Shown here in pieces: positions 1,350-25,300 of a DNA stretch of 53,996 bases. The stretch comes from Candidatus Nealsoniibacteriota bacterium. Its GTDB lineage: Bacteria > Patescibacteriota > Minisyncoccia > Minisyncoccales > PWPS01. The notes beneath the pieces were generated by a model that was not told the DNA's origin, did not search any database, and was given only the letters and a program-made list of their open reading frames with translations. How positions within the stretch are numbered: the stretch's first letter is position 1; every line of letters starts with the position of its first letter. Made by a program: the position numbers and the translations under genes. The stretch covers positions 1 to 53,996 of the forward strand of contig PUNQ01000040.1 of assembly GCA_003551845.1 (NCBI GenBank), in the 5' to 3' direction.

Positions 1350-2879
1350 TTATTTTGCGTATTCGATTACTCTTTTTTCTCTTATAACGTTAACCTTTAT
1401 TTCTCCGGGATAGTTGAGTTCTTTTTCTATTTTATTGGCAATATCCTTGGATAACTTTTTAGCTTCCAGATCATTAATTTCATCCGGCTTGACAAAAACC
1501 CTGACTTCTCTTCCCGCCTGCACCGCATACACTTTTTTAACTCCCGAAAATGCGGAGGCCACTTCTTCCAATTCTTTCAATCTTTTTAAATAATTTTCCA
1601 AAGTGTCTTTTCTCGCTCCCGGCCTGGCTCCGGAAATCGCATCCGCCGTTTGCACTATCACCGATTCTATAGTTTCATATTCATAATCTTCATGATGTGA
1701 CTTCATTGCGTCTATTACTTCTTGTCTGACACCGAATTTTTCCAAAACCCTTATTCCTATATCGACATGAGACCCTTCCACCTTGTGATCCAAGGCTTTT
1801 CCGATATCATGAAGGAGTCCCGCTTTTTTACAAACGAATTGATCCGCACCTATTTCCGCAGCCAAGGCTTCAGCCAAATAACTGACTTCTCTGGAATGCA
1901 GTAATACGTTTTGGCCGTAACTCGACCTGTAATAAAGCCTTCCCAAAAGTCTTATTATCTTCGGGTCAAGTTCAACTATACCCGTATCGTAAACGGCCTG
2001 TTCTCCCGCCTTTTTAATTTGATCGGAGACCTCTTCTTCCGCCTTTTCAACCATCTCTTCAATTCTGGCCGGTTGGATCCGCCCGTCGAAGATCAGTTTT
2101 TCCAAAGCGGTTTTTGCAATCTGTCTTCTTATCGGATCAAAGCTTGATATTAAAACCGTTTCCGGCGTATCGTCAACCACGACTTCCACTCCGGTCAGCT
2201 TTTCCAATGTTTTTATATTTCTTCCTTCTTTCCCGATAATTCTTCCCTTTATATCGTCATCAGGAAGAGAGACATTGGTTGTGGTCAAGTCTTGTGCTTG
2301 GGAGTGACTGTATTTTTGAATTACCGTAGCTAAAATTTCCTTGGCTTTTCTTTCATACCTTTCTTTTCCCTGTTCCTCCAATTTTCTTATCTTTTCCAAA
2401 ATATCGGCTTCCATTTCTTTTTCTATTCTTTTCATTATTTCCTCCTCGGCTTCTTCCTTGCTCAATTCGGATATTCTTTTCAGTTCTTGATCGGCTTCTT
2501 CCCGAAGCTCTTCAATTCTTTTTTTTACTTTTTGGAGTTTTTTTACTCTTTCTTCAAAATTCCTTTCCTTTTCCTCGAAGTCGGCGATCTTTTTGTCTAT
2601 ATTGTTCTCTCTTCTGAGTAAAAACTTTTCTTTTTTTCTTAATTTTTCACTTTTTTCCTCCGCTTCACTTCTGGCTTCTTCAAGAAGGCTTTCCGCTTTT
2701 TCGCGCGCCCTTTCAACCATTTTTCTGCTTTTCTCTCGGGCGGCGTTCATTCTATTTTGTACTTTCGTCTCTATCGCTTCATAGTCTCTTTTCGCTACTT
2801 TTTGACGAGCATGATAACCCAAAACGGACCCTGCCATCAGGGCTACCGCACCCACCAAGAGAGTGATTAAATTTTCCAT
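1350..2879 (-). CDS. rny: Ribonuclease Y
   Basis: A membrane-anchored endoribonuclease that initiates mRNA decay. The 509 residues, close to the usual 510-520, show the full domain order: an N-terminal transmembrane helix (about 3-21), a long charged coiled coil (about 25-190), a KH domain around GRIIGKEGRNIKTLEK (about 212-270), and an HD phosphohydrolase domain with LLHDIGKALDH and a later MKSHHEDYE (about 325-430), then a C-terminal domain. It heads a minus-strand unit that continues into cbiM after 1 nt. A predicted promoter lies just upstream (2897-2925). Confidence 0.97.
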   Translation of the reverse strand: MENLITLLVGAVALMAGSVLGYHARQKVAKRDYEAIETKVQNRMNAAREKSRKMVERAREKAESLLEEARSEAEEKSEKLRKKEKFLLRRENNIDKKIADFEEKERNFEERVKKLQKVKKRIEELREEADQELKRISELSKEEAEEEIMKRIEKEMEADILEKIRKLEEQGKERYERKAKEILATVIQKYSHSQAQDLTTTNVSLPDDDIKGRIIGKEGRNIKTLEKLTGVEVVVDDTPETVLISSFDPIRRQIAKTALEKLIFDGRIQPARIEEMVEKAEEEVSDQIKKAGEQAVYDTGIVELDPKIIRLLGRLYYRSSYGQNVLLHSREVSYLAEALAAEIGADQFVCKKAGLLHDIGKALDHKVEGSHVDIGIRVLEKFGVRQEVIDAMKSHHEDYEYETIESVIVQTADAISGARPGARKDTLENYLKRLKELEEVASAFSGVKKVYAVQAGREVRVFVKPDEINDLEAKKLSKDIANKIEKELNYPGEIKVNVIREKRVIEYAK

Positions 2880-6809: not shown

Positions 6810-6883
6810 GCCCCCGTAGCTCAACCGGATAGAGCGTCCGGCTTCGGACCGGAAGGTTGAGGGTTCGAATCCTTCCGGGGGTA
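6810..6883 (+). tRNA. tRNA-Arg (anticodon UCG)
   Basis: A 74-nt cloverleaf. The 7-bp acceptor stem is GCCCCCG with CGGGGGU (one G-U at the end), the D stem is GCUC/GAGC, the anticodon stem is UCCGG/CCGGA around loop CUUCGGA, and the T arm is GAGGG-UUCGAAU-CCUUC. U33 is followed by UCG. The discriminator is A and no CCA is encoded. Confidence 0.95.
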
Positions 6884-6910
6884 CAAACTTTATTTTTTCA
6901 AAAAATATTT

Positions 6911-6916
6911 TATAAT
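6911..6916 (+). promoter_or_regulatory. TATAAT positioned for leaderless transcription of the 6923 gene
   Basis: TATAAT at 6911-6916 with 6 nt before the ATG places +1 on the A of the start codon. The -35 is weak; read-through from tRNA-Arg could contribute. Confidence 0.45.
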
Positions 6917-6922
6917 TGGGAA

Positions 6923-8434
6923 ATGAAAAATAGCTTTCTTTTTTTGTTGGCGATCCTTTTTGTTATCCTCGCGGGCCCCTTACCCGTTTTCGCTAATGAT
7001 ATGGATGCGGACTCTTACGATATGGTGATAGTCGATGATGAAGGAGATATTCAGAGGATATTACAAATAGAATATGACGGCCTCGTACCTTGCGGAAGAT
7101 GCTTGAAAGCCGAGGTTTCCAACGGAGCACATCCCGTTTTCAACGTCGATTTGGACAGAATCCACGGATGCGACTCTGCAGCCTGGGGCTCGGGAAGTGA
7201 AACCTTCGTTCCCTGCACTCTTTGTCATGGCTTTATCGTTTTCGATCGTGTGGTAAGTTTTTTTCTGGGAGTCTTGATTCCCGCCCTGGCACTCCTTTTT
7301 ATCGTAATTTCGGGTTTGATAATGATTACTTCGACCGGCAACCCGGACAGGATAGAGACGGCTAAAAAGGCCTTCATAGCTTCCATAACCGGTGTATTTT
7401 TGGCTTACGCCTCTTGGGCAATAGTAACTTTGGTCATCTCCACTTTCATGGAATGGGATGAAGTGGAATGGTCCGTCGGAGGAATAGAAGTTCAACACAT
7501 GTGCAACGTAGTTGCCGAAGAAATCGATTTTCACACGGAGGATGAAGAAAATGGAGAAGAAAACGGGCCGGAGAACGGTAATGGAAATGGTCCCGTAAAT
7601 GGAAACGGGCCGGAGAACGGTAATGGAAACGGGTCGGAGAACGGTAATGATTATTTCGAACTGATTATTAATTGCGAAGACGGAGGAAATACTACTGCAG
7701 GCTGTGGAGATATGGATGTTGAGAGCGGAAGAACTCTTAATATTGAAGCTGTGCCCGAAGACGAATATGAATTTGCAGGCTGGAGTGATTGTGATAATGT
7801 TACCGAGAGGTTCTGTGAATTGGAAATGTCGGGAGATAGAAGTATTACTGCTCATTTTTCTGAAGAGTCAGCCACCGACCCCTCATATATGTGTCCGAGC
7901 GGAGAAGAGCAATGTGATAATTGGAGATCGGGAGCAGAGTTGGTGGAAGCCGAAGTTTGTGAACCTCCGCCCTTGCATGAAAAATATATCTGTTGCGAAT
8001 ATAATGACGATACTCATCGAGAAGGTTGTGAGGCTGCCTATTACTCTTTCAACTTTCAACACACTGAATATGGAGACGGCAGTGTTCTAATTCAGTGGTC
8101 ATATGGAGGTAATATAGAATGTGAGGGAGAAAATTTTGAAATAGAAGAAAATCCCGGCGAAATCATAGTTGCTCCGGAAGAAGAAACCACATACGCCATA
8201 AATTGCGAAAGGCCGGGTGGTCTGGAAAATATAAGAGAAGAAATAACAGTTTCTCCGGTAGAAGAGGAGTCAAAGGCGGAGTGGGTGTGTATGCAGGAAG
8301 AAGAAGAGTGTGAAAATAAAGAAGGGTTTGTGGAAGAAGACGAAGAAGGAGAGAAGTGTTCCGCTGATTTTGATGAATTCCCTTTTTGTGATGTCGCAGG
8401 GGGAGAAATGGCAAAATGTTGTATAAAAGAATAA
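6923..8434 (+). CDS. Secreted type IV secretion pilin-hairpin protein with InlB-like and Cys-rich regions
   Basis: 503 residues from the ATG at 6923; a longer frame from 6857 would start inside tRNA-Arg. There is a signal peptide (about 1-24). A conserved Cys-containing segment (LVPCGRC, then VPCTLCHGFIVFD) leads into two transmembrane helices (about 105-175) separated by STGNPDRIETAKKAF, the T4SS-pilin (PF18895-like) hairpin common in CPR. Next come an Asn/Gly linker with NGNGPENGNG repeats (about 200-235), an InlB B-repeat-like module with EFAGWSDC and ITAHF (about 240-300), and a tail with two similar Cys clusters each ending in CC. A TATAAT ends exactly 6 nt before the ATG, so the mRNA may be leaderless. 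Confidence 0.75.
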   Translation: MKNSFLFLLAILFVILAGPLPVFANDMDADSYDMVIVDDEGDIQRILQIEYDGLVPCGRCLKAEVSNGAHPVFNVDLDRIHGCDSAAWGSGSETFVPCTLCHGFIVFDRVVSFFLGVLIPALALLFIVISGLIMITSTGNPDRIETAKKAFIASITGVFLAYASWAIVTLVISTFMEWDEVEWSVGGIEVQHMCNVVAEEIDFHTEDEENGEENGPENGNGNGPVNGNGPENGNGNGSENGNDYFELIINCEDGGNTTAGCGDMDVESGRTLNIEAVPEDEYEFAGWSDCDNVTERFCELEMSGDRSITAHFSEESATDPSYMCPSGEEQCDNWRSGAELVEAEVCEPPPLHEKYICCEYNDDTHREGCEAAYYSFNFQHTEYGDGSVLIQWSYGGNIECEGENFEIEENPGEIIVAPEEETTYAINCERPGGLENIREEITVSPVEEESKAEWVCMQEEEECENKEGFVEEDEEGEKCSADFDEFPFCDVAGGEMAKCCIKE

Positions 8435-8569: not shown

Positions 8570-8851
8570 ATGACAAATACAATGAAAACGGAAAAAGAAA
8601 AAGCGGAAATACTTAACGAGTACGGTTTGGACGAAAACGACACCGGTTCTCCGGAAGCTCAAATCGCAATCCTTACCGCAGAGATAAATAATCTTTTCGA
8701 GCATCTCGAAGACCATCCCAAAGACAAGCACTCCAGAAAGGGGCTGGTCGGAATGGTAAACAAAAGAAAAAAACTTCTCAAATACTTGAAAAGAGAAGAT
8801 GAAGGCAGGTACGAGGAAATTATTAAAAAAACCGGACTTAAAAGTAAATGA
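8570..8851 (+). CDS. rpsO: 30S ribosomal protein S15
   Basis: Binds 16S rRNA helices 20-22 early in small-subunit assembly. The 93-residue product contains the S15 signature [13 protein letters not shown], followed by [29 protein letters not shown], and ends with the usual [12 protein letters not shown]. The start at 8570 gives [10 protein letters not shown]; the in-frame ATG at 8582 is an alternative. A TATAGT about 18 nt upstream may be the -10. It starts an operon in which the next gene begins inside its stop codon (ATGA), continuing to pnp. The rpsO-pnp pairing is an old bacterial arrangement and supports the calls. Confidence 0.97.
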
Positions 8852-9351
8852 CAATAAAGCACAAGGGCCAAAGAGTGGTCGTTTTGATGGATGTTCAAAA
8901 TCTTTACCACTCGGCCAAACATTTATATCAGTCGAGAGTCGACTTCAAGCAAGTTTTAAATCTCGGCGTAAGTAAAAGAACCCTGATTCGTTCTTTCGCC
9001 TACGTCATAAGAACGAAAAGCGGGGAAGAAAAATCTTTTTTTGACGCTTTAACCAACCTGGGTATAGAGACCAGGATTAAGGACCTTCAAGAATATCAGG
9101 GAGGATTCAAGAAAGGAGATTGGGATGTCGGCCTGGTGGTGGATGCAATCAGGCTTTCCGGAAGTGTCGATTCCATAGTTTTGGTCACCGGTGACGGTGA
9201 CTTTGTTCCTTTGGTGGAATATCTACAAAATAAAGGAATAAGAGTTGAAGTTATCGCCTTCAAGCGGTCAGCTTCTTCAAAACTGATAGAAGCCGCCGAT
9301 GAATTCATGGACCTGGAAGAAAACCCCAAAAAATATCTACTTAAAAAATAA
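8848..9351 (+). CDS. NYN (PIN-like) domain protein, putative ribonuclease
   Basis: 167 residues. The pattern [15 protein letters not shown] near the N-terminus, [14 protein letters not shown] in the middle and [17 protein letters not shown] near 110-127 is the NYN/LabA-DUF88 fold, with acidic residues (D15, the DWD pair, DGD) positioned to bind a metal as in PIN nucleases. The C-terminal [19 protein letters not shown] is also typical. The ATG overlaps the rpsO TGA and the stop is 1 nt before pnp, so it sits translationally between S15 and PNPase. A role in RNA processing is plausible from fold and context but unproven. Confidence 0.85.
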
Positions 9352-9352
9352 T

Positions 9353-11479
9353 ATGGAAGAAGATAAATACGAAATACAAATCGGAGGAAGAAAATTAACG
9401 GCCAGCTTTAAAAAGATGGCCGAACAAGCCAACGGCAGTGTAGTTCTCCGCTACGGCGATACCGTCGTTTTGGCGACGGCGACGATGTCGGAAAAGGATA
9501 AAAAAGATGAACTCGGCTATTTTCCCCTGATGGTTTTTTATGAAGAAAAGTTTTATGCAGCGGGAAAGATAGGCGGCTCCAGATATACTCGCAGAGAAGG
9601 TAAGCCTTCCGACAGGGCGACTCTCATATCCAGAATGATAGACAGATCGATCAGGCCCCTTTTTCCGGACAACCTGAAGAGAGAAGTGGAAATAATCGTC
9701 ACCTGTCTTTCTTGGGATGAAGAAAACGATCCCGCCGTTTTGGGTGGATTGGCTTCTTCCATAGCTCTTTCAATCTCCGACATACCCTGGAACGGTCCCG
9801 TATCGATGATAAGGGTCGGGAAAGAAAAATCCGGAGAACTGATACTCAACCCGGATTATCAGGAAAGAGAAGAAGGGCCCATAGAAGCCGTTTACAGCGG
9901 ATTTTTCAACGACAACGGAGAATACGTAATAAATATGATTGAGAGCTTCTTCGAAGAAGCTTCCGATGAAGAAATTATAAAATCGGTTCAAGTAGCCGAA
10001 AAAGCAACAAAAAAACTGGAGGAATTTCAAAAAAAGATAATTGAAAAAAAAGGTGAAGAAAAGATATCTTTACCGGAAGAAAAATCCGATCCGGAGATTA
10101 AAAAGATGGTTGAGGATTTCAGAGACGATATTGAAAAAGCGATTTTCGAGAATGACGATGATGATCATTTGAACAAAATTGAAGAAGAAATAAAGGAAAA
10201 AGTCTCCGAAGAAGATGAAAAAGAAGCCTTAAATTATTTTAATGATCTTAAAAAGAGTATCGTCAGGGAAAAGATATTGAAAGAAAATAAAAGACCGGAC
10301 GGAAGAAAAGCGGATCAGATCAGAGAACTATCGACGAAAGTTAAAATTCTGCCCAGAACTCACGGAAGCGGACTCTTCTCAAGGGGGCGCACAAGATCAC
10401 TTTCAATAATAACTCTCGGCCCTCCCGGTGATAAAAAGCTATTTGACAATATGGAAGAAGAAGGTAAGAAAAGGTTCATGCATCACTATAATTTTCCTCC
10501 TTATTCCGTAGGTGAGTCCTGGCCTCTCAGAGGTCCGGGCAGGAGAGAAATCGGGCACGGAATGCTCGGAGAAAAAGCTATTCGACCGGTTCTTCCGAAA
10601 ATAGACGATTTTCCCTACACGATAAGATCGGTTTCGGAAATACTTTCTTCCAACGGATCGACTTCTCAAGCGGCGATAACCAGCACCTCCTTGGCCCTGA
10701 TGGACGCCGGAGTTCCCATAAAAGCTCCCGTAACCGGGATATCGGTAGGTATGGTTTCAACAAGCAAAGACGATTATCGCCTTTTGGCGGATATTCAGGG
10801 ACTTGAAGATCATGCCGGAGATATGGATTTCAAGGTGGCGGGAACTAAAAACGGCGTGACCGCTATCCAGATGGACGTCAAAATAGATGGAATTACGATC
10901 GATATCATGAAAGAAGCCCTAAAGAAAGGTGAAAAATACAGAAGTGTGATACTGGATAAAATCAATGAAGCGATAGAAAAGCCCAGAGAAGATCTTTCTC
11001 CCTATGCTCCCCGAATAATAACGATGAAAATCGACCCCGACAAGATAAGAGAAGTAATCGGTCCGGGAGGAAAAGTAATAAATGAAATCATAGATGAAAC
11101 CGAAGTTTCAATAGATATAGAAGACTCCGGTGACATCTTCATAACTTCCGAGGATAGACAATCCGCGGAAAAAGCTGTAGAATGGATAAAGAACATAGTT
11201 CGAGAACCGGAAAAGGGAGAAATATTCAAAGGAAAAGTTAAAAAAATAATGAATTTCGGCTGCTTCGTAGAGATTATGCCCGGCACCGAAGGACTGGTTC
11301 ATATATCCGAACTGGAATCGGGTCACGTAAACAAAGTGGAGGATGTGGTTAAGGTCGGTGACGTAATTCCGGTTAAAGTCTTGAAGGTGGCCAACGACGG
11401 AAAAATTGATCTTTCATTAAAAGATGCTAAAAAAGAGATAAAAAAGAACCGTCAAAGGAGGGATGACAAAAATAAATAA
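9353..11479 (+). CDS. pnp: Polyribonucleotide nucleotidyltransferase (PNPase)
   Basis: A 3'-5' phosphorolytic exoribonuclease. From the ATG at 9353 it has 708 residues, normal for the family; a longer frame from 9299 would overlap the NYN gene. Domain order is complete: RNase PH 1 (RYTRREGKPSDRATLISRM, about 80), the helical linker (about 210-320), RNase PH 2 with the substrate-binding RTHGSGLFSRGRT (about 338-350) and DFKVAGTKNGVTAIQMD (about 495), KH domain (GPGGKVINEIIDE, about 565), and S1 domain (GKVKKIMNFGCFVEIMPGTEG, about 625-690). It follows the NYN gene by 1 nt with no Shine-Dalgarno. Confidence 0.97.
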   Translation: MEEDKYEIQIGGRKLTASFKKMAEQANGSVVLRYGDTVVLATATMSEKDKKDELGYFPLMVFYEEKFYAAGKIGGSRYTRREGKPSDRATLISRMIDRSIRPLFPDNLKREVEIIVTCLSWDEENDPAVLGGLASSIALSISDIPWNGPVSMIRVGKEKSGELILNPDYQEREEGPIEAVYSGFFNDNGEYVINMIESFFEEASDEEIIKSVQVAEKATKKLEEFQKKIIEKKGEEKISLPEEKSDPEIKKMVEDFRDDIEKAIFENDDDDHLNKIEEEIKEKVSEEDEKEALNYFNDLKKSIVREKILKENKRPDGRKADQIRELSTKVKILPRTHGSGLFSRGRTRSLSIITLGPPGDKKLFDNMEEEGKKRFMHHYNFPPYSVGESWPLRGPGRREIGHGMLGEKAIRPVLPKIDDFPYTIRSVSEILSSNGSTSQAAITSTSLALMDAGVPIKAPVTGISVGMVSTSKDDYRLLADIQGLEDHAGDMDFKVAGTKNGVTAIQMDVKIDGITIDIMKEALKKGEKYRSVILDKINEAIEKPREDLSPYAPRIITMKIDPDKIREVIGPGGKVINEIIDETEVSIDIEDSGDIFITSEDRQSAEKAVEWIKNIVREPEKGEIFKGKVKKIMNFGCFVEIMPGTEGLVHISELESGHVNKVEDVVKVGDVIPVKVLKVANDGKIDLSLKDAKKEIKKNRQRRDDKNK

Positions 11480-11492
11480 AAAGGTGAGGACG

Positions 11493-12077
11493 ATGAAGGG
11501 AGATATCGCTCTGATAAAGAGCGGAGAATTGACTTTTTCCGAAAAAGAAGAACTTTCCGCCGGACCTCCTCCCTCTCCCGAAGCTCAGCCGATTACACCG
11601 CCTCCTCCACCCGAACCCCCCTCGGCAACCGAAAAGCCGTCTCCTCCCGAACCCGAGCCCGTTACCACTCCTCCTCCCTCTCCCGAAACCGATAAGCAAT
11701 CTACTAAAAAAGAAAGTGTGTTATCCGAAGAGCTTAAAAAGGAGCTTACCGATTTCGGTGTTCAAAGTTTGCAAGAGCTTGAGTCGCATGAAAAGAAGAC
11801 GAGAGAAAAGCTGGGAAAGATAGAAAGAATAATGGGAGAAACGGATCAAAAAATAGAAGACATATCTCAAGAGATAAGAAGCCTTTCTCAACAAATAGAT
11901 GAAAGTGACGAAGGGGTCACCGAAAGAAAATTAAGAAAAAAGAGAGCCGGCCTATTCAAAGAAAGAAAAGAGTTGGAAAAAAATAAGCTCGAAATAATTC
12001 GAAGAAAAAGAGAGACCAAAGAAAGTTTAAAAAAAATAAGCGTTTTTAAAGATAAATTAACCGATTCTTCCCATTAG
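11493..12077 (+). CDS. Pro-rich, coiled-coil hypothetical protein
   Basis: 194 residues starting MKGDIALIKSGELTF. I chose the ATG at 11493 because AGGTGAGG precedes it at a normal distance. The in-frame ATG at 11463 overlaps pnp and has its AGGAGG almost touching the start codon. Residues about 25-75 are mostly Pro, Glu and Ser (PPPPPEPP, PPPSPE); residues about 85-190 are a highly charged helix likely to form a coiled coil. There is no signal peptide or membrane segment. It lies immediately upstream of the giant coiled-coil gene (12 nt apart) and shares its Lys/Glu-rich, Pro-linker style, so they may be partners. I do not recognise the family. Confidence 0.8.
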   Translation: MKGDIALIKSGELTFSEKEELSAGPPPSPEAQPITPPPPPEPPSATEKPSPPEPEPVTTPPPSPETDKQSTKKESVLSEELKKELTDFGVQSLQELESHEKKTREKLGKIERIMGETDQKIEDISQEIRSLSQQIDESDEGVTERKLRKKRAGLFKERKELEKNKLEIIRRKRETKESLKKISVFKDKLTDSSH

Positions 12078-12089
12078 GACTTTTTAAAT

Positions 12090-15000
12090 ATGAATAAAAT
12101 AAAACAAATAAAAGAAAAAATAAAAGAAATCGGGGAAGATATAGAAAAGTTGGAACTGAAAAAAGAACAGATTTCAAAGAGAAAAGAACAATTGAAAGAG
12201 ACCGTTTCCGAAGTAAAAAGCAAGCTTGAAAAAATTGAAGAGGAAAGAAAAAACCTGGAAGAAAAAGGCCAGGAAAGCGAAGAAGAGATGAAAAAAAGAT
12301 GGAAGATGGAAGACAAAATTACCGCATTGGAAGAAGAGCTCTGGAAGTGGGAAGACGAAATGGAAAATCTCCCCGAAAGTAAAAAGGATGATCTGGAAAA
12401 AGAAATTTCCACTTTAAGAAAAGAAAAAAGAACCTTGAAAAGAGAGCTCAGATCCTTGAGAAGACAAGAAGAGGAGCCGGATGAGGAAGAGATAAAGAGA
12501 GAGCTGGCCAACCAGCCGGAAGAACAAAGAAAAGTGAAAGAAGAAGAAATGAGATTGGTTAAGAAGAAGGAAAAATTAGAAAAGAGGTTGAGAGAATTGA
12601 TGGAGGAAGAAAGCAATTTGAAAAAAGAAAAAGATGAATTGGAGCGTGCTCTGGAAGAAGAGAACGACCCCGCAAAGAGACAATCACTTCAATCCGAACG
12701 CTGGGAAGTTGAAGATATGCGTAGAGAAAAAAGAAAAGAAAGGTGGAGACTTGAAGAGGAGATTATGGACACTAAAAAGAAGATCAAGGAAAAAGAGAGT
12801 GAATACGAAGCTCTGGAAAGAAGGAGAAGGAAACTGGAAAAAATAAAAATCCGAAACGAAGCTTTCAAGGACTTGCCCGATGATGAAAAGGCAATTGAAG
12901 AAAAAGTGGAAGAAATAAAGGCGAGCCTGGAGAAGAAGATTGAGCAAAAAGAAAAGCTTTCGGAAGAAAGAGGAAGATTGGAGTCAAAGCTTGAAAAAAT
13001 AATTCCCAAAGAAGAAAAAATTGAAGAACAGGAAAAAGAGATAGAGAAAAAAGAAGAATTGGAAAATGACCCTCAAAAATCAAAAGAGCTGAAGGAAAAG
13101 AGATGGGAACTGGAAGATATGCGCAGAGAAATAGAAGACAAAAGGTGGCAAGAAGAAAGAAAAATTCAGAAAAAGGATGAAGAAATTGAAAGAGTGGATA
13201 CCGAAATAGCTCAACTTGAAGAGCAAAAAGCACAATTGGAATTGGTTCTGAGTGATTTAAAAGAATTGGAAGAGAGAGAAGCCGTAAGAAAAAAAGATCG
13301 GGAAGACGAACAGCTGGAAGAGATCGAAAAGCTGCAAAGGGAAAGAGTGGAAAAAGAGAAAGAGAAAGACTTCAGCCTGGAAACGGAAATAGAAGAAACC
13401 GAAAATAAAATTCAGGAATTAATCAAGGAGGAAAAGACTCTCGAAGTCGAAAAAGAAAGTTTGGAGCAGCGAAAATCACGAACCAAAGAATTTTTGGAAG
13501 ACATACTCAGAAGAGTTGAGGAGATAAAAGAAAGAGAAAAATCAATAGAAGAAAAGGAAGAAATTGCCGAAGATGCGGAAGAGAAGAGGCGCTTGGAAGA
13601 AAAAAGATGGGATTTGGAAAAAGAACGAAGAGAATGGGAAGAAAAAGAATGGAATATGGAAGAAAAATTGAACAGGATAAAGCAAAGAGAAGAAAAACTT
13701 AATATTGAATACCGGGAAGCCGTAAGTAAAAAGGAAGGGTTGAAAGACAAGGTTCGTGAATTAAGACAAAACAAAAAGAAGCAAGCGGTTAAAAGAGAAA
13801 AGAGAAATGTCAGAAAAGATTTGGCTTTAATAAAAGAAGAAAAGAGAGACTTGAATGAAAAAAGAGCCAAAAAGAGAGAGCAGATCAAGCATCAAGAGAA
13901 AAAGATGGAGCTCGTCGAAGAAAGAGAAAAGAAAGTGGAAGAAGAAAAAGAAAAGATAGAAGAAAAAGAAAAGAATGTGACCGGTCCGGAAGAAAAAAGA
14001 GCCGTCGAAGCTCGCAGATGGCGAGTAGAGCAAAGGAGAAAAGACATCGAAGAGGAACGCTGGGAAGTTGAAGAAAAATTAGAAAAATTAAAAGAAGAAG
14101 GGGGGAAGATAGAGCTTCAATATCAACAAGCGTTAAATAAAGAGCTCGAACTGGAGGAAAAACTCGACTCTTTGGATGAAGAGATCGGTAAAATCGAAGC
14201 GATCAAAGAAAAGGAAGAGTTGGAGGAAAGGTTGGAAAGATTTTCCGAGCTACGAGCGACTCTGAGAGATCAAACCTCCGACATGGAGAAAAGAAAAGAG
14301 GAGATTGAAAAAAAGTTGGAAGAAATAAAAAAAGAAGAAGAAGAAATCGAGGAAGAAGGAGAAGAAGTCGAACGAGATGAAAAATTAGCCGAGGGTGCTG
14401 AAGACAGAAGAAAGGTGGAAGAAAAAAGGTGGAGAATCGGAGAAGAGAGAAGAAGAGTAGAAAAGGAGAGGTGGGATTTGGAAAAAGAACTTGAAGAGCT
14501 GAATAAAAAACAGAGAGAGCTCGATCTCGTTCTGGAAAGAGAAAAAGAGGCAAAAGAGAGATTGAGAGACATAGAGATGATGCTCAGTGGAAAGCCCAAA
14601 AAAGAAGAAAAGGACGTCTCACACGAAAAAAGATCCGAGGCGAAAGAACAAAAAAAAGAAAAAGAGGAAGAAGATGACGACATAAAAAAGGAAGATGCCT
14701 CGGAAGAAGAGGATCAAACAACTCAAAAATCGGAAGACTCGGAAGAGTCCGGAAAAGACGAAGATAGAGAAATGAGCGAAAGAGAAAAATTTTTAAAAAG
14801 TCTTGATGAGAAATTGGAGAGTGAAAGCAGTGACGATATTAAGCCGGAAACAGCTGACGAACCGAAAGGAGGAGCTTTTCCGGATACTGCGGAAATGCAA
14901 AAAGAAGACACTTTCCCCTCTTCGGAAAAAGCTTCCGAACAAACTACGGATAAGGACCCTTATAAAGAAGATTCCTCTTCCGCGGAAATTCCTGATTTCG

Positions 15001-17033
15001 ATTCCGAAGAGCAGAGCTCCGATGTTTTTCAGCGTCCGATTGATTCTCCTTCAAGATCGGCTCAAGAGATACCACAACATCCACAACAGCCGGAAGCACC
15101 ACCCTCCGACCCTTCGTCCTCCTCCACTCCGACTCCACCTACTCCCGATAACATCGCCGAAACTCCTTCGGCGGACGATCTTCCGGAAAGACCCGCCAAA
15201 AAGTCCTCCGTTTTGCCGAAATTGATTATTCTGGTAATCGGACTCGCTTTTCTGGGAGGTGTCACTTTCGCAGTTCGTTCCGTTTTGTTTCCCGGGCCCA
15301 CGTTTGAAATTGTAGAAATAAAGCATGACAATATAGGAGATTATCTTTACAACTTTGAAGTTGAATATGTCGGTGATTTCTCCACTTTCAATTGGTCCCT
15401 TCTTTATCAAGAAGAAGAAATAGATGAATTCGAAGGAACTTCTTCCACAAGAAGCATAAGTTCCGAATATGCGAATGAAGAAATAACAATTTCAATAGAG
15501 GGATATGACCAAGAGGGTCAAAGGGTGGATGAAAAATCAACATCCTTTATAGTGGATGAAGTTCTTAAAATAAATGATCTGACGGTGAATAGATTGGAGA
15601 ATCACGAATATGAATTTCAAGTTGATTACGAAGGAGGGTTTTCACAATTTTTGTGGACTCTTTCCGTAGAAGATGATGATGTCGCCACCATGGAGGGAGA
15701 GAGCGTAACACACAGTTTCGATCCCGAACTCGTCGATGAAGAACCGACCGTCACCGTCACCGTAGAAGGATTGGCGGAAAAAGAAGATGAAGAGGGAGAG
15801 ATGGAGATGAGTGTTGTCAGTAGTCTTTCCGAAGATTTTCAAATTACACTGGAGTTGGAAGCTTACACTCTCTTCGAAATAGATGAAAATCAAGATGAAA
15901 CTATCAGATACGAGCTGAGCCCGGAAGAAATTCCCAGCGTCTTGAAGAGTTTACTTGAAGGAGATACAGGTTACACTTTCAGTGAAACGGTAATAGTGAA
16001 TGATGAAGCAATACCCTCCAGATTAATTCATCTCGGTGAATTTTTAGACGCATTCAATATAAGTCCGATAACTCAAAGTTTTTTACAATTTCTTGAAGAT
16101 GAGTTTACTCTCTTCGTTCATTACGGTGAGATAAACAGTGTCGGCTTCGTTGCAAAAGTTGAAGATGATGTAGCGGTTAGAAGTTTTCTGGATCAGGCTT
16201 TGAGGCCATGGGCAAGAGAAGATATTGTAGGAGACTTTTCCGAACTCATAGAAATTCATGAAAGAAAAGACGGTTCCGAAATCACTATTGATGATATAAA
16301 CCGGGAAAGAAGAAGTACTTATCATTCGGGTCATGAAATCAATTACTTTTCACACGAACCGAAAAGAGAAACTCTTGAGCAAAACGTAAGACGCTGGATT
16401 GAAGAATATCTGCCGACATTCGTACATAAAAACGGTTCCGATCTCACCCATTCGGAAACCGAGGGAGATGAAGTATATGCTGAAATGATATTCGAATTCG
16501 AAACTTCTCAGCCCGGATACGGCAGTCTGGAATCAACCGGTCCGACTTCACACACTACAAAACTGATCATAGAAAATTATGAAGTGATCGAAGCGATAAC
16601 CAATGAAGAGTTCGACGAAATTTCCGGAGAGCTTTTAGAAGTTGATCCGGAGATCGAAACCGTTGTAATTGTCAGTGAAACGGTCGGAAATATGGGATTG
16701 AATGTCAGAGAACGTCCTTCCATACAATCATACAACTTCGCCAGGGCCAGTGGAGGAGATCAGTTCAACCTATTGGACGAAGAAGGAGATTGGTATCTAA
16801 TACAATACAGTGAAGACGAAACCGGATGGATTCACAAAAATTTCGCCCGAGAAGAGGAAGTGGAAGTCGGGCGAGATCCGGAAGCGGGTGAAGGAGTAGC
16901 CGAAACCGTAATCGAATCCCCGGAAGAAGAAGTTGATTTCGGAATCCATTACTCCGTAGTCGATGAAAAACTCATAGTGACTCTCTCCATGGAAGCGATG
17001 GAAGAAGTTATTAATCGTTTGGAAGACAATTAA
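12090..17033 (+). CDS. Giant membrane-anchored coiled-coil protein with Trp-pair repeats and C-terminal SH3b domain
   Basis: 1647 residues. Residues 1-830 are an almost unbroken Lys/Glu/Arg coiled coil. Inside it, six modules each contain two tryptophans exactly 14 residues apart (W71/W85, 205/219, 339/353, 507/521, 644/658, 781/795), most in an RW-x-x-E context with RR between them. Residues 830-1035 are an acidic, Ser/Pro-rich linker; 1043-1064 is a transmembrane helix; two similar beta-sandwich-like domains follow (about 1070-1150 and 1165-1260), then an unknown domain (about 1265-1520) and an SH3b-like domain (about 1529-1587, GLNVRERPS...GWIHK). Orientation is probably coiled coil inside, SH3b outside. 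No ATPase head is present, so it is not an SMC. Function unknown. Confidence 0.85.
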   Translation: MNKIKQIKEKIKEIGEDIEKLELKKEQISKRKEQLKETVSEVKSKLEKIEEERKNLEEKGQESEEEMKKRWKMEDKITALEEELWKWEDEMENLPESKKDDLEKEISTLRKEKRTLKRELRSLRRQEEEPDEEEIKRELANQPEEQRKVKEEEMRLVKKKEKLEKRLRELMEEESNLKKEKDELERALEEENDPAKRQSLQSERWEVEDMRREKRKERWRLEEEIMDTKKKIKEKESEYEALERRRRKLEKIKIRNEAFKDLPDDEKAIEEKVEEIKASLEKKIEQKEKLSEERGRLESKLEKIIPKEEKIEEQEKEIEKKEELENDPQKSKELKEKRWELEDMRREIEDKRWQEERKIQKKDEEIERVDTEIAQLEEQKAQLELVLSDLKELEEREAVRKKDREDEQLEEIEKLQRERVEKEKEKDFSLETEIEETENKIQELIKEEKTLEVEKESLEQRKSRTKEFLEDILRRVEEIKEREKSIEEKEEIAEDAEEKRRLEEKRWDLEKERREWEEKEWNMEEKLNRIKQREEKLNIEYREAVSKKEGLKDKVRELRQNKKKQAVKREKRNVRKDLALIKEEKRDLNEKRAKKREQIKHQEKKMELVEEREKKVEEEKEKIEEKEKNVTGPEEKRAVEARRWRVEQRRKDIEEERWEVEEKLEKLKEEGGKIELQYQQALNKELELEEKLDSLDEEIGKIEAIKEKEELEERLERFSELRATLRDQTSDMEKRKEEIEKKLEEIKKEEEEIEEEGEEVERDEKLAEGAEDRRKVEEKRWRIGEERRRVEKERWDLEKELEELNKKQRELDLVLEREKEAKERLRDIEMMLSGKPKKEEKDVSHEKRSEAKEQKKEKEEEDDDIKKEDASEEEDQTTQKSEDSEESGKDEDREMSEREKFLKSLDEKLESESSDDIKPETADEPKGGAFPDTAEMQKEDTFPSSEKASEQTTDKDPYKEDSSSAEIPDFDSEEQSSDVFQRPIDSPSRSAQEIPQHPQQPEAPPSDPSSSSTPTPPTPDNIAETPSADDLPERPAKKSSVLPKLIILVIGLAFLGGVTFAVRSVLFPGPTFEIVEIKHDNIGDYLYNFEVEYVGDFSTFNWSLLYQEEEIDEFEGTSSTRSISSEYANEEITISIEGYDQEGQRVDEKSTSFIVDEVLKINDLTVNRLENHEYEFQVDYEGGFSQFLWTLSVEDDDVATMEGESVTHSFDPELVDEEPTVTVTVEGLAEKEDEEGEMEMSVVSSLSEDFQITLELEAYTLFEIDENQDETIRYELSPEEIPSVLKSLLEGDTGYTFSETVIVNDEAIPSRLIHLGEFLDAFNISPITQSFLQFLEDEFTLFVHYGEINSVGFVAKVEDDVAVRSFLDQALRPWAREDIVGDFSELIEIHERKDGSEITIDDINRERRSTYHSGHEINYFSHEPKRETLEQNVRRWIEEYLPTFVHKNGSDLTHSETEGDEVYAEMIFEFETSQPGYGSLESTGPTSHTTKLIIENYEVIEAITNEEFDEISGELLEVDPEIETVVIVSETVGNMGLNVRERPSIQSYNFARASGGDQFNLLDEEGDWYLIQYSEDETGWIHKNFAREEEVEVGRDPEAGEGVAETVIESPEEEVDFGIHYSVVDEKLIVTLSMEAMEEVINRLEDN

Positions 17034-19516: not shown

Positions 19517-22363
19517 ATGTCGTTTTATCAATCCAAATATTTTAATGCTTCGGCTTTCGTAATTATTTTTCTTTTTTTAATTTTTACACTGAAGCCGATT
19601 CAAGCTCAAGAAGGCCCGGAAATAAGAGTTTTTACTGATGAAGAGGAGTCCGTTTCTCTCTCCGGAGAATGGAGGGCCGACGGACACGGAGACTGGATAT
19701 TCGTCGGAGAAGGTGAGGGTGGGCAAGATTTAATCATGAAAGAAACGAGAGCGGCAAGTCACTTTTTCGGGAGGGAAGGAGAAAAAGAGATTATTCTTCA
19801 CCCTTACCAGGACAATAGATTGAGCAGGATAATTTTTCCCCGTCAAAATCTTATCAGAAACATCCCTGAAGGTCCGGCTGAATTGGAAGATTTTTTCCGT
19901 TTTGACTTGAGTAAAAATAAGATGGGCGTACTCAGAATATCGGAGGAAGAATTCGATCAATTGTCGGAAGAAGAAATCAGAGAAAGACTTGAAGAAGGAA
20001 TGATTCCGGAATATATAACTGACTTTGAGGATTTGAGAAGATTTTATCTTCATGAAAACAACTTCTGGGGTCCGTTCCCCGACGGGATTGAGAACTTGGA
20101 AGAGCTGGAATATCTCTTTTTGGATAATAATCACCTCCAAACGGTTGAAATGGACGGCGTCTCCATACCGGGCATCCCCCCCGGTCTTACCGAATTGGAC
20201 AGGCTTCAAGAGCTCCGGTTGCATGATAATGAATTATCCACTTTCATATACGGAGAATTTACTCCCGGTTTTTTGGAAAGACTCCGAATTTTAACTCTAA
20301 AAAACAATCACATCTCCTCAAGACCTCAAGAAGAATTTCACCACCTGGAAACCGTAAATGTTTTGAATTTAAAAAATAACCGAATTCCTTACTTTTTCAA
20401 TGCCGAAGACATAAGGCTGGACAGCCTGGAATATTTGAATCTTTCTCACAACAGATTGGGGGCTTATGAGCCGTATATTAATCTTGATGAGCCACTTCTT
20501 CCTCAAATCGGTGATCTGGAAAGCTTACAAGAGCTAAATGACTATCATTTTCGCAGAGTCTGGCATCCCAAGCAGCTCCTAATCGACTTGAGATATAACG
20601 ATTATTGGGGAGCGGTCCCCGAAGAAATAGGGAACTTGGAAGGATTGGAAGCATTGCACTTGGACGGAAACAGATTTACCGGAGAGATTCCCGAAGAAGT
20701 GGAGAATTTCGGAGAATACGATGAAATAGACGGTGAGCCTTTTATGCCCTTTACCATCTTTTCGGCTTACGGCAATCATTTTACTGAAGAAATACCGGAA
20801 GAACTGGGAGTCGGAAGCTTGGACTATTTAAAACAATTAAGACTTCACAATAACTTTTTTACCGGGGAGATTCCTCAAGAAGTTTTAAATCTTTCTCAAA
20901 AGGATATAAACGAACCGCTCTATACTCTCAATCTTTCCCATAATCGTCTGGAAAGCCTTGAAGAACCGGCCGATTCTACCGCCAGAATGTTCTTTCTGGA
21001 TAGAAATGATTTTGAAGACTTGCCCGAAAATGTCAGAGCCGGAGAAGTAAAAGTTTTATCCCTGGAAGAAAATTTGCTTGAAGGCTTGCCGGAAAACTTT
21101 GGTGACAATTTCGCAAATGCCAAAGAGCTGTCTCTTTTTAAAAATCCGGATATAGATGAACTGCCGGATAGTTTTGAAGCTCTGCAAAACCTTTATTTTC
21201 TCGATTTGGGAACCCTTCAACTCGATGAATTTCCCATCGAGGTCACTGAGCTTATAAATCTTGAATACTTGAACTTAGCCAGACAAACCACGGACAAAAT
21301 AACTTGGCCGGGAGAAATAATGGAAAATGAAATTCCGGAAGAGATAGATCAGTTAGTGAATTTGGAAACCTTTTTGATTGAAAATAATTTAATAGATGAG
21401 CTTCCCGAAGACGCCTGGAGTAGTCTTCAAAATTTGCGCTTTTTTTACGGTCACCATAATGAAATAGATAACTTACCGGAGAGCATGGGAGATATGCAAA
21501 ATATAGAAAGAATCTATCTTAATGAAAACAAAATAGAAGAAGAAATTCCGGACAATCTGACCAGAACGAGCCAGCTCAGAAGAATATTTTTACAATACAA
21601 CAGTCCGGACGGGCGTCAAACCGACGGCCGTGGCGGCATTATCGGAGAATTGCCGACCAATCACGCTTGGGGGCAACTGGAATACTTTTTAGCCGACACC
21701 AATGAGATAACGGGAGGCATCCCCGAAAGATTCGTAAGTAATCTCCCCCAATTGGAATGGTTCAGTATGTATAGAAACAAGCTGGATGGAGAGATAGATC
21801 CGGCAATCGGAAATATGGAGAGTTTGGAGTGGTGGGATATAGCTTTAAGTGAAGACTCTTCCAACGACGGAGCGGGATCGGCAGGTGGTCTCATAGGAGA
21901 TATTCCTCCGACGATCGGTAACTTGGAAGATCTGGAAGTTTTCAACTTCAACAACAATCAAATAGAGTTGGTTCCCGACGAGATAAACAATCTCGACAAT
22001 TTGATGATCTTGCACGGCTTTGAAAATATGGTTGAAGAGTTCGCAGAAGACATAGGGGGTATGGATGAACTTTGCCAATTGGATTTTCACAATTCCGAAT
22101 ACGGTGGTAATTGGGTTGAGCAATGGCCCGACGGAGTGGAAGATTTGCCCAATTGGGTCTACTTCAGCTTCGGAGAAAATGAAGTCATGGAAGGAACGGT
22201 TCCTTGGGATGATTGGCTGGGAAATTATCCGGATCATGCCATATGGGTAAACAATAATCAACTGGAGGGAGCTTTCGTCGACGGCATGGCCGAAGAAACA
22301 AGGGATATGGTCTTTTTCAACGCCCGAGATAATGATTTCGACGGCAATTTACCGGCCAACTAA
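19517..22363 (+). CDS. Secreted leucine-rich repeat protein
   Basis: 948 residues with an N-terminal signal peptide (hydrophobic AFVIIFLFLIF, then KPIQAQ, about 13-31). From about residue 115 to the end it is a long array of leucine-rich repeats. Many carry the GxIP/N-x-L-x-G consensus usually associated with plant receptor LRRs (for example DNNEITGGIPERF-like and GDIPPTIGNLEDLEV), mixed with shorter bacterial-type LPE repeats. There is no C-terminal anchor or sorting motif, so it is probably released or held by the next protein, which has related repeats and starts 5 nt downstream. A protein-binding role is expected from the fold; the ligand is unknown. Confidence 0.85.
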   Translation: MSFYQSKYFNASAFVIIFLFLIFTLKPIQAQEGPEIRVFTDEEESVSLSGEWRADGHGDWIFVGEGEGGQDLIMKETRAASHFFGREGEKEIILHPYQDNRLSRIIFPRQNLIRNIPEGPAELEDFFRFDLSKNKMGVLRISEEEFDQLSEEEIRERLEEGMIPEYITDFEDLRRFYLHENNFWGPFPDGIENLEELEYLFLDNNHLQTVEMDGVSIPGIPPGLTELDRLQELRLHDNELSTFIYGEFTPGFLERLRILTLKNNHISSRPQEEFHHLETVNVLNLKNNRIPYFFNAEDIRLDSLEYLNLSHNRLGAYEPYINLDEPLLPQIGDLESLQELNDYHFRRVWHPKQLLIDLRYNDYWGAVPEEIGNLEGLEALHLDGNRFTGEIPEEVENFGEYDEIDGEPFMPFTIFSAYGNHFTEEIPEELGVGSLDYLKQLRLHNNFFTGEIPQEVLNLSQKDINEPLYTLNLSHNRLESLEEPADSTARMFFLDRNDFEDLPENVRAGEVKVLSLEENLLEGLPENFGDNFANAKELSLFKNPDIDELPDSFEALQNLYFLDLGTLQLDEFPIEVTELINLEYLNLARQTTDKITWPGEIMENEIPEEIDQLVNLETFLIENNLIDELPEDAWSSLQNLRFFYGHHNEIDNLPESMGDMQNIERIYLNENKIEEEIPDNLTRTSQLRRIFLQYNSPDGRQTDGRGGIIGELPTNHAWGQLEYFLADTNEITGGIPERFVSNLPQLEWFSMYRNKLDGEIDPAIGNMESLEWWDIALSEDSSNDGAGSAGGLIGDIPPTIGNLEDLEVFNFNNNQIELVPDEINNLDNLMILHGFENMVEEFAEDIGGMDELCQLDFHNSEYGGNWVEQWPDGVEDLPNWVYFSFGENEVMEGTVPWDDWLGNYPDHAIWVNNNQLEGAFVDGMAEETRDMVFFNARDNDFDGNLPAN

Positions 22364-22368
22364 GTTTT

Positions 22369-25300
22369 ATGAATATTAATTCAGATTCAATCAAAAAAAT
22401 ATTATTGATTCTCTCGGTGGCGGCAATAGCCGTTTTTGCTGTTTTCGTTTTAACCGATTTCGATTATTCTTTTTTAACCGCCGATTTAAGTGTTGATGAG
22501 CCCGATGATCCGGAAACGGCGGAAATCGCTCCTCTTTCGGGTGGGGGCACTTTACCACCACCACGAAGCTATTCACAGGAGTTCAATCCGGGTCAATACC
22601 TGACTTATCCGAGCCACCCGGAAGAATTACCCTTTTTCAGAAGATGGGGAGATGAATTCGGAGACCCATCAAAACACTCCGGACAATCCCTGAAAGTCTT
22701 GACTTATGTCGACGGAATACATGTCCCCGGAGCCCAAATAAATCAGGTCAACGTGGATGATATAGAGAGCATTCCTCCCGGGGGAATGGGAGGCTTAACA
22801 CCCTATTATACCGATTGGATGCAGACGGAAATAAAAGATGTCTTTTTGGAAGCTCCCGAAGAGCACGGTGGAGGAAGATTCGTCGGTTGGTCCGGTTGTG
22901 ACGCTCCCGGAGAATTGGATAAAGAGCCCTCTTGTCAGGAGCAAACCGTAGAGGAGCTTCGTTGTCAGGTATCAATAACCAACAAACAAACCAGAAGAAT
23001 AGAAGCTCACTATATGATATCCGAACCCGTATTACCTCTCCAGCTTTGGAGTGTAAGCAATAATGAACTAACCGGTGGAATTCCTCCCACGATTTGGGAA
23101 ATCTTGGAGCCTCAAATCGCTTTCAAGTCCGCCAACCAGGCCGACGGACACCTTCAGGGAGGTATTCCGGACACGATTGCCGAGTTACCCTCTCTGCAAC
23201 TGAATATAGGAAGAAACTACTTGGATGGCGAAATTCCGGAAGCGACAGGTGATATGGAAAATATAGAGTGGCTCGGCTTTTATCTTAACCGGCTCACCGG
23301 AGAAATTCCGGCCGCTCTGGGAAATTTGGGAGATACTCTGCGATACCTGCTTCTTTATGATCAGGTAGGAAAAGGAGGCGGCTTAACGGGAACACTTCCC
23401 AGAGAGCTGGGAGATTTAACTAAATTGGTCCGCTTTGAAATTCACGACAATTTTCTGGAAGGTATTATTCCCAAAGAATTAGCCGATATCAGTTTACTTA
23501 TTCCTTCCGAAATGAGATTTTTCAATAACAGATTTGAAGGAGCGGAAGAAGGACTTATGTCCGATTCGGTTTGGGAAGGGGTTAATTTCAATACCAATCG
23601 AATCGGCCAACAAGCCGGTGAAGACATTCTTTGGGATGCGGCTGAAAGAAGCGGAACCTATATAGATCTTTGCAACAATGACGTAATCGGCGGGCGCGTA
23701 GATTATGAGATAGGTGGCGGATGTAAAGATACGGGCATCATCGATGCCGTTAACGCAGCCGTAGAAGCCGGTTGGGACGTATACATACCTATAGAACTGT
23801 ATCAAGATTACGAATGGTGGGACGGATGTAGCAGTGCTACATGTCAAATAGAGTATGATGACGAGACGGGAGAACCGATAGGTGCCAGTAAAGGAGGTTG
23901 CAGTCCTCAGCAGTCAAGCAATCAAAAACCCTATTGCGAAGGCCGTGCCGAATGTGTAAGAGTGGAAGAGCCGATCGAAACTTGTGATGATATCGCTTCC
24001 AATTCGGAAGGTCTTCCGGAGGAAGTCAAGCACGCTTCAAATTGCCCCGGTTGTGATTATTGGAAGCACGACGAATGTGAACCCAGGTGTGAATTCGAGG
24101 GACAATGCACACAAAATACAGATACTCTCGAATGTGATGAAAGTTACCCTTACGATGGAAGAGATGAAATTGAACCCACCGAGGAAGATCCTCCCAAAAG
24201 TGAAGATTGTATGGATGTTCATAGATACTATGAAGTTCCTCCTCCTTCAGTCAACGCACCATCTTCTTCCGGTAATCGCGACATGATCGACCCCGCAGAA
24301 GAAATTCCGATACCCGTCAATAAGTTGAACGTACCTCTCGACCCTTGCCCCAACCCGCCCAGAGAACCTCGCTTCGTTTACAGAGAAAAGGTAATTCACG
24401 AAGAACGTCAATTCAGACCGGAACACACCGGTTGCGGAGGAGATATACTGGTCAGAAAGTGGCAAAGAGTGGTTATGCAGGCCGGATATTGTACTTCCGC
24501 GGAGTGCAGGGACCCGCAGTGGCTCGATCCCGAAGAGGGTGGCTACGTCCAAATTCACGAACGTTTCGTGCCCGGACCGGAAGGAAAAGTTTTCGAAGAG
24601 GTCGGAAGCTGGCAAAAAGCCTGGCCCTCCAGTGTCGAAGACGGTCACCCAAAACTCAGTGAAACCCACCCGCAAGGAAGAAATCAATGGAAGACGGAAA
24701 AACAGCTCAAGGATGAATTCGGGGAGCCGGTTCCTTTTCCCGTTTGTCAGAGTGATTGTGTTCAGCCACCGCCCGGAGTTCCCGATGAGATTGCCGAATT
24801 CAAGCAAGAAGATCCCTACTACTTCAACAATCCTTGGCTTCCGGAAATAGTGGGAGGAGAAAGATCCGACAATATAGAGCTTTTAAGAGAAAAAAATCTC
24901 TTGGCCGGAATGAGGTCCATTGAAGATTTGATGATTGAAAAAGACTATCTGGACACCGTTTCTTTACCGGTCAAATTATTCTGGTGGAACGTTCCCGGTT
25001 GGCACGAAGGATGGGTGGAAGACGGTGAAGACAGGTTCTGTGAAGGGCCGGAAGATATCGCCTGCGTTCATCATTACATAATACGTTTCGACAACATAAA
25101 CAGGGAGGACAGGCCGGCCGAGTTTCACCGGCATGAAGTAATCTACTGGCTGACCGAAGAACACGGTTTGGATTATAATGAAGCTCAAAATTTATATACA
25201 GAATTAAAACAGCAAAACCATCGAGCTTACGTAAACTGGAGAATAGAGGAAAAAGACAGGACGACCACCGACGTTATGCGCTATGACCGGGACAATATAG

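Follow-up and report, generated by a model that had tools for sequence, protein, structure and literature searches.

The window, that is, the whole stretch of DNA under analysis (53,996 nucleotides of a Candidatus Nealsoniibacteriota genome), carries a gene for a protein of 1647 residues, which follows the gene for PNPase and a short gene. These genes and the parts of the protein are the following, given with their coordinates, strand and, in parentheses, the basis of the assignment.

1350-2879 (-): RNase Y (Pfam domains RNase_Y_N, KH and HD)
8848..9351 (+): predicted RNase with a NYN domain, immediately preceding PNPase (Pfam NYN, E=2.6e-36)
9299..11479 (+): PNPase, the constant upstream neighbour, with its likely start at the ATG at 9353 (Pfam RNase_PH, KH and S1; synteny)
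11463..12077 (+): 204-aa gene with an N-terminal VRTMKGDI motif at 11484-11507 (ORF; motif comparison)
12090..17033 (+): protein of 1647 aa, comprising a Trp-containing coil with predicted hairpins, an acidic/Pro/Ser linker, a TM helix and an SH3b ectodomain (ORF; orthologues G001-G003)
12090..14669 (+): coiled-coil part, residues 1-860, with six predicted hairpin turns (sequence; AF2 of residues 470-880)
12300..12344 (+): Trp pair 1 (W71/W85), a divergent pair (sequence; family alignment)
12702..12746 (+): Trp pair 2 (W205/W219), turn ENDPAK (profile match 12615-12836)
13104..13148 (+): Trp pair 3 (W339/W353), turn ENDPQK (profile match 13014-13238)
13608..13652 (+): Trp pair 4 (W507/W521), turn AEDAEE (profile; AF2 helix break)
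14019..14063 (+): Trp pair 5 (W644/W658), turn VTGPEE (profile; AF2 hairpin model, pLDDT 97.8, pTM 0.80)
14430..14474 (+): Trp pair 6 (W781/W795), turn AEGAED (profile; AF2 helix break)
14670..15209 (+): acidic/Pro/Ser low-complexity linker, residues 861-1040 (composition)
15213..15275 (+): single TM helix, residues 1042-1062 (hydropathy and sequence)
15276..17030 (+): ectodomain, whose homologue is a separate downstream gene, C, in a sister genus (G006) (orthologue comparison)
16695..16841 (+): SH3b domain, SH3_3, PF08239, residues 1536-1584, E=6.5e-10 (Pfam profile)

Other plus-strand genes of the window encode a T4SS-pilin-like TM domain fused to an InlB B-repeat-like domain (6857-8434), a secreted leucine-rich-repeat protein of 948 aa (19517-22363) and, following the latter, a 2152-aa ORF that has no Pfam match (22369-28827).

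The coil (residues 1-860) is made up of 29% E, 18% K and 10% R. A preliminary description of the sequence had pointed out six pairs of Trp residues placed 14 residues apart and the near absence of this amino acid from the rest of the coil, and both observations hold: all twelve codons are TGG at the residues claimed, the pair-to-pair spacings of 134, 134, 168, 137 and 137 residues are reproduced from the ORF, and 12 of the 14 Trp of the coil belong to the six pairs, with W87 and W516 outside the pairing scheme. When 14 Trp were placed at random in 880 residues, at most 4 pairs at distance 14 arose in 200,000 trials, compared with the 6 observed; with all Trp forced into one heptad phase, at least six pairs arose in 142 of 200,000 trials. 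The Trp pairing in the window protein is not due to chance.

The Trp residues are also conserved. Among orthologues of the same genus, all six pairs are kept in G003 and G001 and five in G002, and family members at ~30% identity (G004, G006 and G009) have six pairs each. Modules 4-6 were aligned from 10 sequences (29-53% identity), none of which departs from Trp in any of the six columns. Using a profile in which Trp was masked, we retrieved 185 modules in 73 ORFs, with W at position 1 in 171 (92%) and at position 2 in 169 (91%), the first W preceded by Arg in 168 (91%) and Arg at +6 in 159, percentages which are upper estimates because the loci were mostly fetched with a Trp-containing profile. 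For modules outside the profile-building set the corresponding counts of W are 147/161 and 145/161, while the Trp frequency in the remainder of these coils is 0.16%. Pair 1 of the window protein gave no match in the module profile search; its pattern, RW...W-W, is nevertheless conserved in the family. The preliminary description would have regarded homologues without the Trp spacing as evidence against the module: such homologues do exist, but nearly all those examined lack the entire coil, and in two (G019 and G064) the coil is kept and the first Trp of a module is lost, with Arg in its place.

A profile of the module was then built and used to search Patescibacteria genomes, as had been proposed, and 86 of the 147 genomes of the order were found to have the module, frequently in two copies that lie 411 bases (137 codons) from each other. 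In a survey of 287 genomes of the phylum only one of the ~284 genomes outside the order had a match, and therefore the profile is not merely detecting coiled coils. Judged from these searches, the module is almost exclusive to a single order of Patescibacteria, and the repeat is order-wide and not a peculiarity of the window protein. The module spacing is likewise conserved: of 112 intervals, 61 measure exactly 137 residues, as does the interval in 30 of the 39 proteins with two modules, the remaining two-module proteins being mostly about one heptad shorter (129-130 residues). The usual member in the order has 450-950 aa, begins where the PNPase gene ends, often with an overlap, and consists of an N-terminal [IV]RTMxKD[IL] motif, a coil with two modules, a TM helix and a variable tail. 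A module was also noted beside a LysM/M23 peptidase on a contig of a Pacearchaeota archaeon MAG (L111), probably a mis-binned bacterial contig.

That the Trp spacing arises by accident from the heptad composition, the protein being a common coil of the SMC or myosin type, was suspected at first, and a weak NCBIfam SMC match (E=3.8e-6), typical of coil composition, would agree with it, but the idea was dropped after the Trp-blind profile and is refuted by conservation, as the Trp are kept in divergent homologues and under that profile, which is itself specific (the single extra-order genome mentioned above), leaving it a negligible probability. Indeed, the SMC_prok_B match reaches 25 bits for a cut-off of 567, and no ABC ATPase head domain was found with Pfam, so that an SMC- or Rad50-like assignment does not hold.

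Searches of the coil against Pfam, NCBIfam, PHROGs and PDB sequences returned only generic coiled-coil matches, and the module alone retrieved from the PDB sequences generic coils only, with E values of 0.005 or worse. A Pfam search with the protein and 70 modules gave no match to Spectrin or EzrA, the iSH2 family of Pfam did not match the module, and tblastn of the whole window protein against phage records gave no match. In the literature on coiled coils or PNPase in Patescibacteria or Nealsonbacteria nothing was found on the window protein. The earlier statement that no described family has this layout is thus upheld, the module being unmatched in Pfam, NCBIfam and the PDB. The bacterial SH3 domain (PF08239, 39.5 bits for a curated cut-off of 27) accounts for the outer tip of the window protein only and leaves the coil unexplained. 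Spectrin repeats and EzrA share with the window protein an arrangement of tandem helical repeats. However, the spectrin unit has ~106 residues and three helices, whereas the window module has 134-137 residues per helix; and EzrA, a bacterial protein with a single TM helix and a cytoplasmic helical repeat, has this helix at the N-terminus with the cytoplasmic repeats after it, while in the window protein it is C-terminal to the coil.

We have then analysed the structure of the repeat by modelling, fold comparison and covariation. The AF2 model of residues 470-880 (nine orthologues; pLDDT 87.6, pTM 0.48) has helices at model positions 27-160, 164-297 and 301-364, and a break of three residues lies just ahead of each Trp pair. 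Module 5 modelled alone (166 residues, 70 sequences) gives two helices with a 3-residue break, at a pLDDT of 97.8 and a pTM of 0.80, every residue being above 90. Each Trp pair starts 11 residues past a predicted tight turn joining two helices of ~134 residues. AF2 monomer models of coiled coils may mislead (PMC9775385). The top Foldseek matches of the module model in the PDB are antiparallel two-helix coiled coils, the best being PI3K iSH2 (3l4q_C; TM 0.76, rmsd 2.4, 149 columns), and CT398, HP0958 and a dynein motor entry were also matched. PI3K p85 iSH2, CT398, HP0958 and dynein contain, as the module would, a pair of long helices running antiparallel on either side of a tight turn, but they show no sequence relation to it (Foldseek E >0.01, no Pfam match), and here the hairpin is repeated within one chain and has a Trp-Arg signature at the turn. 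What seems not to have been described before is the repeat family, with its Trp-Arg signature and strict pitch; as a fold, the antiparallel hairpin is known.

Independently of AF2, covariation across the turn was measured as four-class mutual information; its maximum lies on the antiparallel diagonal i+j=-18, with z=8.9 for a null maximum of 3.95, on a background that is inflated by family structure. Of the 25 strongest pairs, 5 fall on this diagonal, against an expectation of 0.3 (P ~1e-5, uncorrected for the number of diagonals scanned), and four of these five are long-range and follow heptad steps (-31/13, -45/27, -52/34 and -59/41). The diagonal ranks first near the turn in two independent subsets and fades beyond ~50 residues from it, so that the support from covariation covers the near-turn stretch. 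Charge-only covariation across the turn gave no convincing diagonal, and the covariation claim thus rests on the four-class mutual information.

The preliminary description had seen in the modules a folded structural repeat, perhaps the unit of a rod. The first part is borne out by AF2, Foldseek and covariation; the second is contradicted by the same analyses, which point to a tight antiparallel helical hairpin of two long helices, a model well supported by computation. A straight end-to-end rod (a molecular ruler or filament), with the Trp pairs as contacts between neighbouring rods or strands, would suit the strictly kept 137-residue period and the great length of the helices. It does not explain why a helix break lies just ahead of every Trp pair, nor does it agree with the fold comparison of the module model or with the antiparallel sense of the covariation across the turn; moreover, members with two modules and homologues without a coil make a length-counting role unlikely. 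None of the results calls for a ruler or a filament, and we consider the rod improbable.

The hydrophobic pattern of the modules suggests how the hairpin might be closed. Counting the first Trp as 0, core positions -1, 6 and 13 are occupied by Arg and positions 2, 9 and 16 by aliphatic residues, and the Trp at 0 and 14 adjoin the core Arg residues. On the -18 diagonal Arg -1 is opposite residue -17, and 115 of 162 modules have Glu there. In the arrangement that we propose, the Trp pairs would mark where the second arm of each long antiparallel hairpin starts: a helix of ~134 residues would end in a short turn, x-D/N/S/T-P-E-E, followed by the next helix, whose first three heptads read R-W-x-phi-E / R-R-x-phi-E / R-W-x-phi-E. 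Arg in one core position would pair with Glu of the preceding helix with Trp beside it, and such polar Arg-Glu layers, covered by Trp, may close the hairpin tip and fix the register. With six turns, residues 1-860 would form some seven helices, each ~20 nm long, which would lie in the cytoplasm as a bundle or a zigzag.

The preliminary description had also placed the coil at the membrane and the SH3b-like domain outside, and this agrees with the single TM helix predicted at residues 1042-1062 and with the PF08239 match in the ectodomain, across this helix from the coil. Lys/Arg residues lie on the N-terminal side of the helix, and no signal peptide is present in the RTM and coil part, so that a cytoplasmic location of the coil is to be expected. 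In an unrelated member of the order (L078) a signal-like N-terminus is followed by a cohesin domain, a TM helix and, at the C-terminus, a Trp module, an order of domains that would independently place the module in the cytoplasm. We infer an N-in topology, with a cytoplasmic coil and the SH3b ectodomain outside. The L078 protein (G096, 13-1779) also has an Ig-like region, and a second cohesin-like protein follows it. The tails of the order members end ~20-25 residues from the start of the TM helix, or contain an SH3b domain or an ectodomain of 230-260 residues; since many members end ~25 residues past the TM start, SH3b lies outside the common core.

The linkage to PNPase is conserved, as PNPase is directly upstream in nearly all loci of module proteins with a visible upstream gene, and the orthologues G001-G003 occupy the same place after it. 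In the window the 204-aa gene overlaps the end of PNPase by 17 bases, and the NYN gene also precedes PNPase in class-level relatives (L171-L177, read by eye). The RTM motif, which occurs about once per genome, and the PNPase neighbourhood are the constant features of the family, and most members have a TM helix. In order members without a module match the gene after PNPase mostly retains the RTM motif and has no long coil, and in other orders of the class its product joins the RTM motif through a Pro-rich linker to a TM helix and an ectodomain. From these layouts it is likely that an old PNPase-linked protein with RTM motif, TM helix and ectodomain gained two hairpin modules in the order. Sister genera have three genes, A (RTM motif and module coil), B (six modules, in many cases with SDLDFKF at the end) and C (TM helix and ectodomain); in the window genus A is reduced to 155-204 aa and B and C are fused (1540-1647 aa). 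By gene comparison, the window protein corresponds to the B-C form, and the 204-aa gene at 11463-12077 to A, the split-off ancestral N-terminus. The window protein is a Nealsonbacteria-specific expansion (from 2 to 6 modules) and split form of the order-wide post-PNPase protein.

The stand-alone B proteins (L055, L056 and L057) share a near-identical C-terminal tail, (D/N)(L/I)SDLDFKF, which resembles a binding peptide. A second RTM-motif protein of the window genome (VRTMKNDI, 406-aa frame; L170, G000:C47, 1957-3174, minus strand) has no Trp module, and its neighbours are the B and D genes of a V/A-type ATP synthase and a prepilin-like gene, not PNPase. RNase Y is found within ~10 kb on the PNPase contig in G004, G006, G009 and G010; elsewhere in the order it is far from PNPase or on another contig.

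These results suggest that the coil hangs from the membrane by one TM helix and that the most likely role of the family is that of a membrane-tethered scaffold or spacer holding whatever binds the RTMxKD motif, the leading candidates being PNPase and the NYN nuclease. Taken as a whole, this explanation (a coil with hairpin turns, an order-wide post-PNPase protein, a membrane-tethered scaffold or spacer) is in our judgement reasonably probable, whereas the identity of the partner is speculative and PNPase or NYN in that role is, on balance, rather unlikely.

A tether of the envelope or of cell division, EzrA-like in broad layout, with a partner in the cell wall or divisome and with the proximity of PNPase as inherited synteny, would account for the frequent combination of a TM helix with SH3b or another ectodomain, for the retention of both parts in coil-less homologues of the class and for the M23/LysM peptidase nearby. 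On the other hand, many members have no ectodomain at all, their TM helix being ~25 residues from the end, and the cytoplasmic RTM motif and the PNPase linkage extend over the order and reach into the class. We see such a tether as a possibility worth keeping, though an unlikely one.

The membrane-tethered scaffold could be narrowed to RNA decay based on PNPase, with RTMxKD[IL] docking PNPase or NYN and the hairpins, locked by Trp and Arg at a 137-residue pitch, setting the distance from the membrane; in Nealsonbacteria this scaffold would be split (2-3 genes) and expanded from 2 to 6 turns. RNase Y and RNase E are membrane scaffolds of the RNA degradosome (PMC5289998), and they resemble the window protein in its predicted membrane anchor, in its coil or linker, which would be cytoplasmic, and in the genetic proximity to PNPase; they differ from it in that the window protein has no nuclease domain, and the coil of RNase Y is a parallel dimer (PMC9775385). 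As would be expected of a degradosome scaffold, the gene is linked to PNPase across lineages, and the location of RNase Y ~6 kb from the NYN-PNPase genes in the window was counted in favour of the link to RNA decay. Against it, RNase Y is present in 20 of 20 relatives tested (RNase E/G is absent from all 20), which makes a second scaffold unnecessary, many homologues have the RTM motif and no long coil, and the second RTM protein of the window genome adjoins ATP-synthase genes. This narrower version, for both its docking and its hairpin-spacing parts, is unlikely.

A further proposal, that the hairpin modules serve the assembly of type IV pili, draws on a module protein of G001 that lies in the order PilB, PilC, module protein, PilM, and on its counterpart, a second Trp-module coil of the window genome (L112, G000:C40, 1573-3408, cut by the contig end) that directly follows prepilin-like genes. 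However, the widespread form sits at PNPase and not at pilus genes, and a mobile structural module common to two systems explains both locations, so we regard a pilus scaffold as very improbable; the second occurrence of the module, beside type IV pilus genes, is in keeping with a structural unit that can be reused.

The coil, the RTM motif and PNPase can all be produced in E. coli, and hence the membrane-tethered scaffold could be tested without culturing the organism. The analysis defines an undescribed repeat family, for which RW-x13-W after a D/N-P turn, at a 137-residue pitch, is diagnostic, and which occurs in a large bacterial group that is uncultured and has strongly reduced genomes, tied to a conserved gene of RNA decay.
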